Of a stretch of 64,000 bases of DNA, positions 5,207 through 9,576 are shown in pieces; the stretch's first letter is position 1; each line of letters begins with the position of its first letter. Origin of the DNA: Hoeflea sp. (GTDB lineage: Bacteria; Pseudomonadota; Alphaproteobacteria; Rhizobiales; Rhizobiaceae); the NCBI RefSeq assembly GCF_002733955.1, contig NZ_NVXQ01000002.1, forward strand, positions 248,001 through 312,000, read 5' to 3'. The position numbers and the translations under genes are program-made. Below the pieces are notes generated by a model. That model was not told where the DNA came from. It ran no database searches and worked only from the letters and a program-made list of their open reading frames with translations.

Positions 5207-5386
5207 GCCACGTCGTGGCCTGCCTGTTGTCGCAGCTTGCTCGGCGCGTCGGAACAAGGCCGCTCTCTCCGCGTTGAAGGGAACCCGCCGGCATTGCCAG
5301 CCGGCCGGATTTCCACCTATGCTCAGTGCCCCGGATCCCGGATCTTTCGGTATCGCGCGCCGGGCATCAACAGACGGAGACTTGCC

Positions 5387-5869
5387 GTGAGCGTCGCCTT
5401 CACCAAGGAAGAAAGTTCCGAGACCGCAGCCGAAACGCAGCTGCCCGACCGACCGATTTCCGCGCATCCCAATCTGGTGACATCGACCGGTCTGAAACAA
5501 CTGCAGGCAGAGCTTGCAACCGCGCGCACCGCGTTCGAGGCGGCCAACGGCATCGACGACGTCAACGAGAAGCGGCGTCAGCAGGCAGGCCCGTTGCGCG
5601 ATGCGCGCTATTTCGCCGAGCGGGTTCGTACCGCCCAGCTGATGCCCGATCCCGCGTCGCACGAGACCGTCGCCTTCGGCGCGACCGTCACCTACAGCCG
5701 CGACGGCAAGCCGCCGCAGACCTACCGCATTGTCGGCGAGGATGAAGCTGACCCGAAGACCGGAACAATCTCCTTTGCCTCGCCGGTCGCCCGCGCCCTG
5801 ATGGGCAAGGCCGTCGGCGATGTGGTCGAGACCGGCGAGTACGAGATCGAAGTGATTGCGATCGCCTGA
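5387..5869 (+). CDS. GreA/GreB-family transcription factor lacking the acidic tip motif
   Basis: This 160-residue protein starts at GTG 5387 (GGAGA 7 bases upstream); the frame is open further upstream without a convincing site. It has a coiled-coil (about residues 30-85) and a C-terminal FKBP-like GreA domain (about 95-160, ISFASPVARALMGKAVGDVV) that binds the RNA polymerase secondary channel. In GreA the coiled-coil tip carries DLSENAEY with catalytic acids; here the equivalent reads GPLRDARYF, so the leading Asp is a Pro. It may be a regulator without cleavage activity, or a nucleoside-diphosphate-kinase-regulator-like paralogue. The canonical greA would lie elsewhere. Confidence 0.85.
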   Translation: MSVAFTKEESSETAAETQLPDRPISAHPNLVTSTGLKQLQAELATARTAFEAANGIDDVNEKRRQQAGPLRDARYFAERVRTAQLMPDPASHETVAFGATVTYSRDGKPPQTYRIVGEDEADPKTGTISFASPVARALMGKAVGDVVETGEYEIEVIAIA

Positions 5870-5917
5870 CCAGTGGCGAGTCTGCATCGAGGATCTCCGC
5901 ATCGGGGCTGATCGACG

Positions 5918-5962
5918 GCATGTCCCGCTCAATCGGAGTCAATCGAGCGATAACGGACATGC
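5918..5962. repeat. Short palindromic repeat, copy A
   Basis: GCATGTC at 5918 pairs with GACATGC ending at 5962, enclosing CGCTC (5926-5930) and GAGCG (5945-5949). The flank CGATAACG.ACATGCAT is shared with a second copy at 25917-25965, while the inner stem differs. It resembles a dispersed palindromic element common in rhizobial genomes. It may act as an RNA-level hairpin after the GreA-like gene. Confidence 0.65.
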
Positions 5963-6780
5963 ATCATGTCTACGCGTTTTATCCGGACAGCCCAAACCGC
6001 TGCCGCGCGACAAGAGCCGCCGGGGGATGAGCTGCAAATCCGGAGGGCCGCACGCGGGCATTGCCTTACGGAAAAATAGAATGGGTGGCGCAACCTGCGC
6101 ACGGCCCGAGCATCGCCGGATGATGTCCGCATCCGACAGGCGGCGCCTTGCACTTCTCGGGAGTGGCTTATCCACCAGGGTCCCGCCCGGATTGCTCCAG
6201 TCACGGTCTGGACTGACCGCGCCAGAGGGTTTCGGGGAACCGGCACGGACGCTGAAGGTCAAAAACCTCACATGTCCGCCACAGGCCCGCACCGGTCTTC
6301 CCGCTCCGCGCATCCGCCTTTCGGCGGCCACGGAACGAAACCCGGCCCGGTGGCTGGCTTTGCACGCGTCTCAAAGAGACCCGCCCGCCAGCGGAACCCC
6401 GATGACCTCCGCCTCCTCCCGGGCCATGCCGCACGTTCCGGCACACCCCGAAAGGCCTTCCTCCCGCCTGGACCAACACGTTCACGTTCCATCCGGCAGC
6501 GGGAGCCCGGAAAGTGTGACACGGGTTTTCGGGGTGGGGAAAAGAATGACAGGAATGGATTTTTCTGTTTCACGGCCTGATAGGTGGCCGCGATGATGAA
6601 TTTGCTCTAGCGTCAGATCAGATAAGATGCATATGTCTGGTATCACACAAAAGTCCCTGGAATCGACACTGCCCGGCGGCAGATCGCGAACTGGCCGAAA
6701 ATCGAAGTATGACAGGTTGCCGGCGGGGCCATCTGTTTGACCAAACTAGACGTATTTTTGCGTTACAGGACACTTTGAGG
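5963..6780. other. Gene-poor stretch, no recognisable gene
   Basis: About 820 bp separate the GreA-like gene from the RsbQ-like gene. Open frames exist on both strands (for example 5856-6596 on plus and 5939-6331 on minus), but their translations are Arg/Pro/Gly-rich, overlap one another, lack convincing ribosome sites and match no family I know. I see no tRNA, tmRNA, RNase P or riboswitch signature. From about 6590 the base composition becomes AT-richer, which probably marks the promoter of the RsbQ/kinase pair. Confidence 0.5.
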
Positions 6781-6789
6781 GAGTGGCTC

Positions 6790-7596
6790 GTGGACATACT
6801 CATTCGAAACAATGTGACGGTAATCGGCGACGGAAACACGCCGCTCGTCTTCGCCCATGGCTATGGTTGTGATCAAAACATGTGGCGTTTGATCACTCCG
6901 GATTTCTTATCAGACTACAAGGTCGTACTCTATGATCTCACCGGCTCGGGCAAGTCCGACCTCGGGGCGTATGACTTCAAGAAATACAGCACCCTCGAAG
7001 GCCATGCGACAGACCTGATTGAAATCTGTGACGCGCTTGATTTGTCGGGTGCAGTCGTAGTCGGTCACTCAGTCAGCGCAATGTCCGCCGCGTTGGCTGC
7101 CAATCGCCAGCCGGAGCGGTTTTCGGCATTGGTGATGGTAGCGCCGTCACCATGCTACATCAATGATGGCGATTACACCGGAGGCTTTACGCCAGCAGAC
7201 ATCGAAGGACTTCTCGATTTTCTTGATACGAATTTTCTGGGGTGGTCGAGGGAAATGGCGCCCGCAATCATGGGCGTGCCGGACAAACCGCATCTTGCGG
7301 AAGAGCTGACCAACAGCTTCTGCCGGACCGATCCGTCAATTGCGCAGCATTTCGGCAGAGTGACCTTCATGTCCGACCATCGGCACGATGCAAAGAAGGT
7401 GAGCCTGCCAACCTTGATCCTACAGTGCAGCGAAGACATCGTCGCACCTGTAGCCGTCGGGGAATGGCTGCAGGACAATATAAGAGAAAGCCAGCTGGTC
7501 CTGATGAATGCAACGGGGCATTGCCCACATCTCAGCGCCCCGGCTGAAACAGTTTCTGCGATACGCGAGTTTCTGGGCGCGGATGCCAACACCTAA
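6790..7596 (+). CDS. RsbQ-like alpha/beta hydrolase
   Basis: This 268-residue protein starts at GTG 6790 behind GAGGGAG; the longer ATG start at 6709 has no family support. It closely resembles Bacillus subtilis RsbQ in length and motifs: HGYGCDQ near the oxyanion hole (residues 23-29), nucleophile elbow VGHSVSAM with S94, acid D216 (CSEDIVAP) and H244 (TGHCPH). RsbQ acts with the PAS domain of the phosphatase RsbP in energy-stress signalling and is structurally related to plant D14/KAI2 receptors. Here the next gene, 12 bp downstream, encodes a PAS-bearing histidine kinase instead, so the hydrolase probably feeds that sensor. Ligand unknown. Confidence 0.9.
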   Translation: MDILIRNNVTVIGDGNTPLVFAHGYGCDQNMWRLITPDFLSDYKVVLYDLTGSGKSDLGAYDFKKYSTLEGHATDLIEICDALDLSGAVVVGHSVSAMSAALAANRQPERFSALVMVAPSPCYINDGDYTGGFTPADIEGLLDFLDTNFLGWSREMAPAIMGVPDKPHLAEELTNSFCRTDPSIAQHFGRVTFMSDHRHDAKKVSLPTLILQCSEDIVAPVAVGEWLQDNIRESQLVLMNATGHCPHLSAPAETVSAIREFLGADANT

Positions 7597-7607
7597 CCTT
7601 TCGAGAT

Positions 7608-8996
7608 GTGACCAGCACGATGGCATCAGAAAATCAGGTCCACGAAACGGCTGATGAAATACTCGCTGATTTGCCTTGCGGCGTTGTCTCCACGCTGACT
7701 GACGGCACGATCGTGCGGGTCAATGAAACGTTCCTCAACTGGACCGGACTGCCATCGAATGTGGTTGACGAAGGTCGGCGCTTTCAGGAACTGCTGACCG
7801 TGCCGGGGCGCATTTTCTACGAGACACATTTCGCACCGCTGCTCCTCATGCAGGGAGGTGTCAAAGAGGTGGCATGCCAGCTCAAACGGGTCGACAAGGA
7901 ACCGCTCCATGTCCTGCTTAACTCCATGGTGGTCGAAGGTCGAGGAGATCTCCCGCGCATTATCCGGACGGTTGTCTTCGACGCAACGGACCGGTTCAAG
8001 TATGAACAGGAACTCAGACGCGCACGCAATGAGTCCCGGCAACTTGCCGCGATCGTCAACGCCTCCACTGACGCCATTGTCAGTGCCGGCCTGGACGGCG
8101 TTGTTCGCACCTGGAATCCCGGCGCCACCCGTATGTTCGGCTACACAGAGGCCGAAGCCGTGGGCCACGATGTTGACGATCTAATCGTACCTGACGACCG
8201 CAAACTGGAGCGGGAGACAAAGTACAGGAGGGTCCGGGCTGGGGAAACCGTGATTTTCTCTGACACCGAAAGACACCGCAAGGACGGACGGCTTGTTCCA
8301 GTGGAAATCACCGCCACCCCCATGGTTGATGACCACGGTCGCGTGATCGCTGCATCCTTGATGTTTCGGGACATCAGTGAGCGCAAGATTGCGGAAGAAA
8401 AACAACTGCTTCTGATGGGTGAACTTAACCACCGGGTCAAGAACCTGCTCGCGGTGGTTCAGGTGGTCGCCCGGCAAACAGCCAGCGTCAGCGACGCCGC
8501 AACATTCGGCAACAAACTGTCCGATAGGCTACTCGGTCTGGCTGCATGCCAGGACCTTCTCGTGCAGACCAACTGGCTAGGCGCCGAGCTGACTGAGCTG
8601 ATCTCGGCGCAACTGGCACATTTCAGCGACATGATAGGCACCCGCATATTCATCGACGGCCCCGACATCAAAGTAACTCCCAATGTCGCCCAGAGCCTCG
8701 GCATGGCGCTGCACGAACTGGCCACGAACGCAGCCAAATACGGCGCGCTCTCAAATTCCAGCGGGGGCGTCAAAATCAGTTGGCAGATCCGGAATGATCC
8801 CGACCCTCGGTTTGCCATCCAATGGGTGGAACACGACGGGCCGCTGGTCGAGCCCCCAACCAAGGAAGGATTCGGGAACAAGGTGCTCCGGCGGATGGTG
8901 GAGGCTTCGGTGAAGGGTGAAGTGTCGCTTGACTATGCACCGGATGGCCTGCGTTGGAATCTTGAAGCACCGCTGAGCGACATTACAGCGGAGTAA
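7608..8996 (+). CDS. PAS-PAS-HWE sensor histidine kinase
   Basis: This 462-residue protein is cytoplasmic (no TM segment). It has an N-terminal PAS domain (about 15-130), a second PAS with PAC (about 145-262, ending SLMFRDISERK) and an HWE-family kinase core: phosphoacceptor H275 in GELNHRVKNLLAVVQ, N374 in ALHELATNAAKYGALS, and the W-x-E signature at W406/E408 followed by the glycine box GFGNKVL. HWE/HisKA2 kinases commonly feed PhyR and the general stress response in alphaproteobacteria. The start is GTG 7608 (weak ribosome site) or ATG 7620. It sits directly behind the RsbQ-like hydrolase and has no linked response regulator here. Confidence 0.92.
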   Translation: MTSTMASENQVHETADEILADLPCGVVSTLTDGTIVRVNETFLNWTGLPSNVVDEGRRFQELLTVPGRIFYETHFAPLLLMQGGVKEVACQLKRVDKEPLHVLLNSMVVEGRGDLPRIIRTVVFDATDRFKYEQELRRARNESRQLAAIVNASTDAIVSAGLDGVVRTWNPGATRMFGYTEAEAVGHDVDDLIVPDDRKLERETKYRRVRAGETVIFSDTERHRKDGRLVPVEITATPMVDDHGRVIAASLMFRDISERKIAEEKQLLLMGELNHRVKNLLAVVQVVARQTASVSDAATFGNKLSDRLLGLAACQDLLVQTNWLGAELTELISAQLAHFSDMIGTRIFIDGPDIKVTPNVAQSLGMALHELATNAAKYGALSNSSGGVKISWQIRNDPDPRFAIQWVEHDGPLVEPPTKEGFGNKVLRRMVEASVKGEVSLDYAPDGLRWNLEAPLSDITAE

Positions 8997-9014
8997 GCGG
9001 CAGGCATTTGCCGC
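8997..9014 (+). terminator. Stem-loop after the kinase gene
   Basis: GCGGCA (8997-9002) and TGCCGC (9009-9014) form a 6-bp hairpin immediately after the kinase stop codon. No U-tract follows, so it is at most a weak terminator or an RNA-stability element. Confidence 0.3.
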
Positions 9015-9243
9015 CAATGGTCAGCTCGTTCTGCCTGGTGTGCAGTTCGCGCAAGACGTAACCCTCTGCAGGGTACCGGGGCACTGTCGTTCGGACCGCT
9101 TCGGCCTGCAGCGCGATGTGCAAGGCAGGGGTGTTGCGTCACGACACCGGATTTCTTCTTTTGGCAAAATCCGCTATGACCAGTCGCGAGCAAACGCTGC
9201 GATCACCCCAACACCCAACGCGATTCCCGAGGAAACCTTGACC

Positions 9244-9576
9244 ATGAAATTCCGGCTTGCAATCCTGGCTGTCAGCGCCGCCCTTGTTTCGGCCTGCACC
9301 ACCGCTTCGGTGGCTTCCAATCCGCTTGAGAAGCGCTGGAACGGCAAGTCGGCAGGCGTGTTCTTTGCCGCCTACGGTCCGCCGATCTCCGACAGTGGCG
9401 GCGCGCTCGGCGCCACGCAATATACCTGGCGCGGCGGGTTTCGCGGCGGCCGGCCCTGCGTGGTCGAGCTTTCGGTTTCCAAGGACTACACCATCACATC
9501 GATCCGCGCCGTCTCCGACCGGATTGACCCGAAGGGCGGGCCGTCGCATTGCGAAAAGACGCTTGATGCGGAGTGA
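9244..9576 (+). CDS. Small putative lipoprotein
   Basis: This 110-residue protein has a lipoprotein signal (hydrophobic residues 4-16, lipobox VSAC with the acylated Cys near residue 18) and a short globular domain containing a GAxxYTWRGG-like segment (about 58-72) and two further Cys (PCVVEL and HCEK) that could form a disulfide. ATG 9244 follows GAGGAAA. It is a hypothetical lipoprotein of the type widespread in Rhizobiales; I know no function. It stands alone between the kinase and the repeat cluster. Confidence 0.78.
   Translation: MKFRLAILAVSAALVSACTTASVASNPLEKRWNGKSAGVFFAAYGPPISDSGGALGATQYTWRGGFRGGRPCVVELSVSKDYTITSIRAVSDRIDPKGGPSHCEKTLDAE

Follow-up and report, generated by a model that had tools for sequence, protein, structure and literature searches.

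The closest described relative of the locus reported here is the RsbQ-RsbP system of Bacillus subtilis, which belongs to the energy-stress branch of the sigma-B response. There, the gene of a hydrolase with a catalytic triad lies upstream of the gene of a protein with an N-terminal PAS domain of the RsbP type; no second PAS domain follows, and the output comes from a PPM phosphatase whose target is RsbV. According to PMC3183031, signalling in B. subtilis involves a contact at F55 of RsbP and depends on the active site of RsbQ, and an AlphaFold2 model described in PMC12143880 places RsbQ between PAS domains and linkers. The part of PMC3183031 that deals with the RsbP-PAS class (Nadezhdin et al. 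2011) gives nine class residues, C10, L13, L48, Q53, F55, C56, Y59, E72 and P86, and reports that alanine at L48, F55, Y59 or E72 leads to a null RsbP phenotype in B. subtilis. The same paper already names histidine-kinase outputs of the RsbQ-PAS module in Gram-negative bacteria, with the gene order and the N-terminal RsbP-PAS that we find here, and its set includes additional PAS domains in five of 45 proteins, to be compared with the second PAS domain of our kinase. It calls the signal of the module mysterious and sigma-B in B. subtilis the only known target, and states that there is no experimental support for the module sensing energy status, even in B. subtilis. A later answer on signal or target was not found in the open-licence PMC literature searched, where absence is a weak indication.

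Two further systems resemble parts of the locus. The Brucella abortus LOV-PAS-HWE kinase (6ph4) has the same sensor-PAS-HWE chassis, although its N-terminal sensor is a LOV domain, and the plant receptors KAI2 and D14 are hydrolases related to the one described below. KAI2 and D14 are hydrolase-type hormone receptors whose known partners are plant proteins and not a PAS kinase, and we know of no partner hydrolase of the Brucella kinase.

An RsbQ-type hydrolase followed by a PAS-PAS-HWE kinase

The window, a stretch of 64,000 nucleotides from a Hoeflea sp. contig, carries on its forward strand the gene of an RsbQ-type alpha/beta hydrolase (6790..7596; GTG start, 268 aa), preceded on the same strand by a likely ribosome-binding site, GAGGGAG, read directly from the sequence at 6777..6783. 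Residues 94, 216 and 244 of the protein are Ser, Asp and His. The S94 position is Ser in all 118 aligned hydrolases, and the D216 and H244 positions hold Asp and His in 117 of the 118, the remaining row having a gap. Pfam returned generic alpha/beta-hydrolase matches only. The top match among solved structures is B. subtilis RsbQ itself (1wom, E 8.7e-89, residues 2-264), followed by Olei00960 and then by proteins of the KAI2/D14 type. The residue check and this ranking bear out the preliminary description of an RsbQ-like hydrolase with the triad S94/D216/H244, and the window provides, on the hydrolase side of the RsbQ-PAS module, an RsbQ homologue with its catalytic triad.

The next gene, on the same strand, encodes a sensor histidine kinase of 462 aa (7608..8996; GTG start, with an in-frame ATG at 7620 as a possible alternative). 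A PAS-PAS-HWE kinase had been described directly downstream at a spacing of 12 bp; Pfam, the HWE motifs and the predicted fold uphold the architecture, but the gap counts 11 bases (7597-7607). In order along the forward strand, the kinase comprises PAS1 (residues 15-125, 7650..7982; placed by profile and predicted fold), a predicted connecting helix (residues 127-152, 7986..8063), PAS2 (about residues 154-255, 8067..8372; Pfam PAS_9/PAS_4/PAS and predicted structure), an HWE_HK domain (residues 272-353, 8421..8666; PF07536) with the phosphoacceptor H275 at 8430-8432, and a catalytic ATP-binding part (about residues 354-455, 8667..8972) with a G-box at 421. PAS2 and HWE_HK exceed the Pfam cut-offs, the latter with E 2e-21 and 77.0 bits against 22.8. 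Together with the PF07536 match, the kinase has H275, the N-box residue H369 and W406-x-E408, which we take to be marks of the HWE histidine kinase family. A model of the whole kinase (mean pLDDT 88.2, pTM 0.70) gives the same order: PAS1, helix 127-152, PAS2, a helix 257-291 that carries H275, and the catalytic part. A whole-chain fold search with this model ranks the Brucella LOV-PAS-HWE kinase first, with an overall TM-score of only 0.42. Where RsbP has its phosphatase, the window kinase has a second PAS domain and an HWE core.

PAS1 alone scores just below the Pfam cut-off (PAS_9, 26.2 bits versus 27). In the 75-sequence PAS1 alignment A3, 74 match PAS_9 at E 0.001 or better. Its sequence retrieved from solved structures only lactoferrins and other chance matches, none below E 0.06; its model is a PAS fold (mean pLDDT 91.3) whose nearest structures are PAS and LOV domains. 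Residues were mapped through an RsbP sequence that was compared with PMC3183031 at ten residues and agrees at all of them. By this mapping, C24, V27, L63, R68, F70, Y71, H74, E87 and H101 of the window correspond to C10, L13, L48, Q53, F55, C56, Y59, E72 and P86, and by reading eight of the nine class residues fit in letter or kind. At the four null-phenotype positions L48, F55, Y59 and E72 the window has L63, F70, H74 and E87, each the most frequent letter of its column in an alignment of 116 rows that counts the window itself (some rows are near-duplicates, such as G186 and Pseudohoeflea). The same is true of all nine class positions except L13, where Val is the second commonest letter, and P86, at which loss weakens RsbP and which is His in the window and in 6 of the 116 rows and Pro in 97. 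The P62 position is kept as P77. PAS1 ends in DAT (FDATDR), close to the DIT motif, which PMC3183031 gives as absent from its RsbP-PAS sequences; other RsbQ neighbours have comparable endings. Judged by sequence, the first PAS domain of the window kinase is of the RsbP type, with the positions critical for RsbP signalling kept, and it lies directly downstream of the hydrolase as the most N-terminal domain of its protein. By sequence and gene order, the window pair belongs to the RsbQ-PAS module already described (PMC3183031).

Pairing of the two genes across genomes

A profile built from 15 hydrolases, scanned against named genomes, gave at least 591 relatives. Among the best 80 of these, 79 RsbQ homologues have a stop-to-stop frame with a PAS1 match just downstream, the exception being L125, an RsbQ without an adjacent PAS1 match. 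The hosts of this best 80 of at least 591 belong to Pseudomonadota, Bacteroidota, Actinomycetota, Myxococcota, Acidobacteriota, Chloroflexota and Planctomycetota and include a cyanobacterium. An RsbQ match is also present in 74 plasmid records. In the 248 genomes of the family of G450, another genome of the window's class, the hydrolase search (E 1e-60 or better) and the search with a PAS1 profile built from RsbQ neighbours (E 1e-12 or better), with up to 10 and 17 first-look candidates scored per genome, each returned ten genomes. The two sets of ten are identical; each genome has one place, at which the two matches stand 21-73 bases apart.

Of 199 genomes in the window's own family, its own included, 16 gave a hydrolase match at 1e-30. 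Besides the window there are 16 places; at 15 of them a PAS1-type protein with HisKA-type motifs follows (by eye; the frame of L028 ends early), and at L041 a shortened hydrolase precedes a transposase-like ORF. Inspection by eye of these 16 places revealed no HWE kinase beside the hydrolase. In the class, 11 of 385 genomes, again including its own, have a hydrolase match at 1e-40. The ten others divide into G450, with an HWE kinase, four with PAS-kinase frames carrying HisKA-like motifs (by eye) and five with weaker RsbQ-like hydrolases (35-40% identity), none of which has a PAS1 match in its flank of up to 1.5 kb. An RsbQ match was likewise absent from the flanks (up to 1.5 kb) of all 12 HWE-kinase relatives that lack a PAS1 match. 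The RsbQ-like hydrolase of Paracoccus sp. Arc7-R13 stands in front of a diguanylate cyclase, and a PAS1 match was not found in that cyclase. As this case and L125 illustrate, the RsbQ-PAS pairing is widespread but not universal.

Another species of the genus (G586) has an orthologous pair, with the hydrolase 88% and the kinase 84% identical, between the same flanking neighbours, and for this reason the adjacency of the two genes is not due to chance. A chance neighbourhood is also ruled out by the 79 of 80 adjacent cases (best 80 of at least 591) together with the shared ten of the 248 genomes, and the co-occurrence that the preliminary description had proposed to check is in place. Within the genus, the kinase is found in two of 18 genomes, its own included, and is absent from 16 of the 18 species; the hydrolase search covered two of the remaining 16 genomes and was negative in both. 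In the window (5237-9576), a GreA-like gene precedes the pair and a lipoprotein gene, present in 18/18 genomes of the genus, follows it. In six of the 16 genomes lacking the kinase, the GreA-like gene can be seen in the flank (1.5 kb) of the lipoprotein gene, and neither a hydrolase nor a kinase match lies between the two; the gap is about 150-180 bases in three of these genomes and 830-850 bases in the remaining three. For the other ten, the GreA-like gene falls outside the stretch read. On this evidence, hydrolase and kinase appear to be gained or lost together in the genus.

The HWE output and its origin

What is new here is the HWE output of the RsbQ-PAS module, which was not found described in the literature searched; the module itself is known. 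HWE has no occurrence in the main text of PMC3183031, and we found no report of RsbQ together with HWE, nor later reports of RsbQ homologues with sensor histidine kinases in proteobacteria, in the open-licence PMC literature, where such absence is weak. With HisKA-type neighbours at 15 of the 16 other places of its family, the window differs in output from its relatives as well.

Pfam (E 1e-5 or better) was run on the window kinase P0002 and on 78 of the 79 neighbours from the best 80 of at least 591, L122 being omitted because its frame ends early. Of these 79 proteins, 58 carry HisKA, nine SpoIIE and two HWE_HK, the last being P0002 and L094, from an uncultured delta-proteobacterial MAG. Further RsbQ-PAS-PAS-HWE sets occur in G586, in G450, on a Loktanella salsilacus plasmid and in five more genomes of the family of G450. 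The ten outputs of that family are HWE in six, HisKA in two and GGDEF in two (motifs by eye; G450 by Pfam). One of the six HWE outputs is degenerate: in the RsbQ-linked PAS-PAS-HWE protein of G955 (L193 / L180), the phosphoacceptor His is replaced by Ser and the N-box His by Asn, and it is possibly a pseudokinase kept beside its RsbQ. A second PAS domain is present in each of the ten HWE-linked kinases found, recognised by Pfam in four, by a PAS2 match in one (G586) and by eye in five. The pair of G450 (L149:2492-16159) lies among apparent genes for a PQQ-type alcohol dehydrogenase, an ABC transporter, a LuxR-type regulator and a FIST-type protein (by eye). Searched at E 1e-75, own genome included, the kinase matched in 11 genomes of the family (394 searched) and in 4 of the class (385 searched), and only in the window genome (G000), G586 and G450 does the matched kinase have a PAS1 match and an adjoining RsbQ. 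In G165 (L151:5823-10851), an RsbQ lies about 2.9 kb upstream of a PAS-HWE kinase lacking a PAS1 match, with the RsbQ's own PAS1-HisKA hybrid kinase between them.

In a tree of 108 hydrolases (a quick search without bootstrap, leaving out eight near-copies, the divergent L040 and L046, five weak hydrolases and L186), the nine alphaproteobacterial HWE-linked hydrolases form a clade (SH-aLRT 95), apart from the HisKA-linked hydrolases of the same families, with L094 outside it. Y48 and W226 mark all nine and H72 eight of the nine, and a single clade of the five HWE-linked hydrolase rows that were found first is not rejected (p-AU 0.87). The kinase cores behave otherwise. For 25 HWE cores (L001, L006, L007, L136, L137 and L141 having been left out as long branches or near-copies), the ten RsbQ-linked rows as one clade are rejected (p-AU 0.0004), and a single origin is not supported. 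The window core groups with a kinase of G444 (support 94/90; 97/92 in a 31-row tree) that lacks a PAS1 match and has no RsbQ in its flank, and the five cores from the family of G450 are a separate group (99/97). For PAS1, which offers few columns, the best tree does not unite the nine alphaproteobacterial rows, but their union is not rejected (p-AU 0.14), and this domain alone does not decide. Since the hydrolases form one clade but the cores do not, the joining of sensor and HWE cores probably took place on more than one occasion; the alternative is that the sensor was lost repeatedly. The evidence of the core tree is moderate because its branches are long.

An import of a Gram-positive device is ruled out by the HisKA-linked RsbQ-PAS pairs in the window's own family and by the spread of the module over many phyla. 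The preliminary description took the locus for a Gram-positive input that is here joined to a kinase of alphaproteobacteria, and this part of it is not supported, Gram-negative kinase outputs being already named in PMC3183031; its statement that hydrolase/PAS pairs with other outputs had been reported was correct.

Proposed signal transfer and candidate targets

Taken together, sequence membership, adjacency, conservation of critical residues and predicted fold make it probable that the two genes encode a two-protein cytoplasmic sensor, in which the hydrolase acts through PAS1 on the HWE kinase core. By analogy with B. subtilis RsbQ/RsbP, the hydrolase would contact PAS1 directly, docking on its F-alpha helix, and would change it in a manner that depends on a substrate or ligand and on an intact catalytic triad. 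The change would then travel via helix 127-152 and PAS2 to the HWE core, altering autophosphorylation of H275 and, with it, the transfer of phosphate to a response regulator whose gene lies elsewhere. The coupling may differ from that in RsbP because PAS2 intervenes between PAS1 and the kinase core, and PAS2 could even be the dominant sensor. The His at the P86 position, the DAT ending of PAS1 and the incomplete pairing across genomes are points against this mechanism.

A competing version, to which we give slightly less than an even chance, has the hydrolase itself as the sensor, a ligand in its pocket being signalled by contact and no product being handed to the PAS domain, as in Model 2 of PMC3183031, which leaves this open. 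The conserved PAS contact helix and the KAI2 and D14 proteins, which make up most of the further solved-structure matches of the hydrolase, are in its favour; no observation here separates it from the making or delivery of a ligand that the preliminary description had suggested.

The same bipartite sensor may have PhyR as its target, with the kinase phosphorylating this regulator in the alphaproteobacterial general stress response, a proposal that we consider less likely than not. HWE/HisKA2 kinases coordinate activation of that response according to PMC12148442 and PMC10359499, and the Brucella kinase found as first fold match is linked to it in PMC4438053. The window genome (4.86 Mb, 40 contigs) encodes NepR, PhyR and an EcfG-like sigma factor on contig C1 (1181-4248 and 8243-9904; L150). 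However, the pair lies on a different contig, and the PhyR locus has two HWE kinases of its own, to which the window kinase is only 30-36% identical. With an EcfG consensus, no EcfG-like promoter was found at 6001-7700. The HWE type does not by itself name the target, since the genome has eight HWE matches, and PhyR is one plausible target among several, with output to it possible. By eye, no response-regulator gene was seen beside the window pair and no conserved third gene around five further HWE-linked pairs. On the Loktanella salsilacus plasmid (NZ_CP072993.1, L152:3163-8876), genes for RsbQ, the PAS-PAS-HWE kinase, a KaiC-like ATPase, a second HWE kinase and a single-domain response regulator stand in a row on one strand, a hint as to the signal route.

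That the hydrolase is a metabolic enzyme adjoining the kinase by accident of position would agree with its generic Pfam matches, but it is very improbable given the adjacency over many phyla and the one-to-one occurrence with the PAS domain.

The two-protein sensor with an HWE output raises the question of whether two unrelated bacterial stress responses, those of sigma-B and EcfG, have one common sensor. A full form of this proposal, in which RsbQ-PAS and HWE kinases were brought together two or more times in alphaproteobacteria and at least one of the resulting kinases drives PhyR, so that both responses share a sensor input, is at present doubtful. Through the HWE-linked hydrolase clade, soluble kinases made of two proteins become available, and their binding, ligand and phosphotransfer are open to direct assay. 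With one hydrolase clade facing several kinase lineages, the system would exemplify a sensor that holds on to its partner and exchanges its output.
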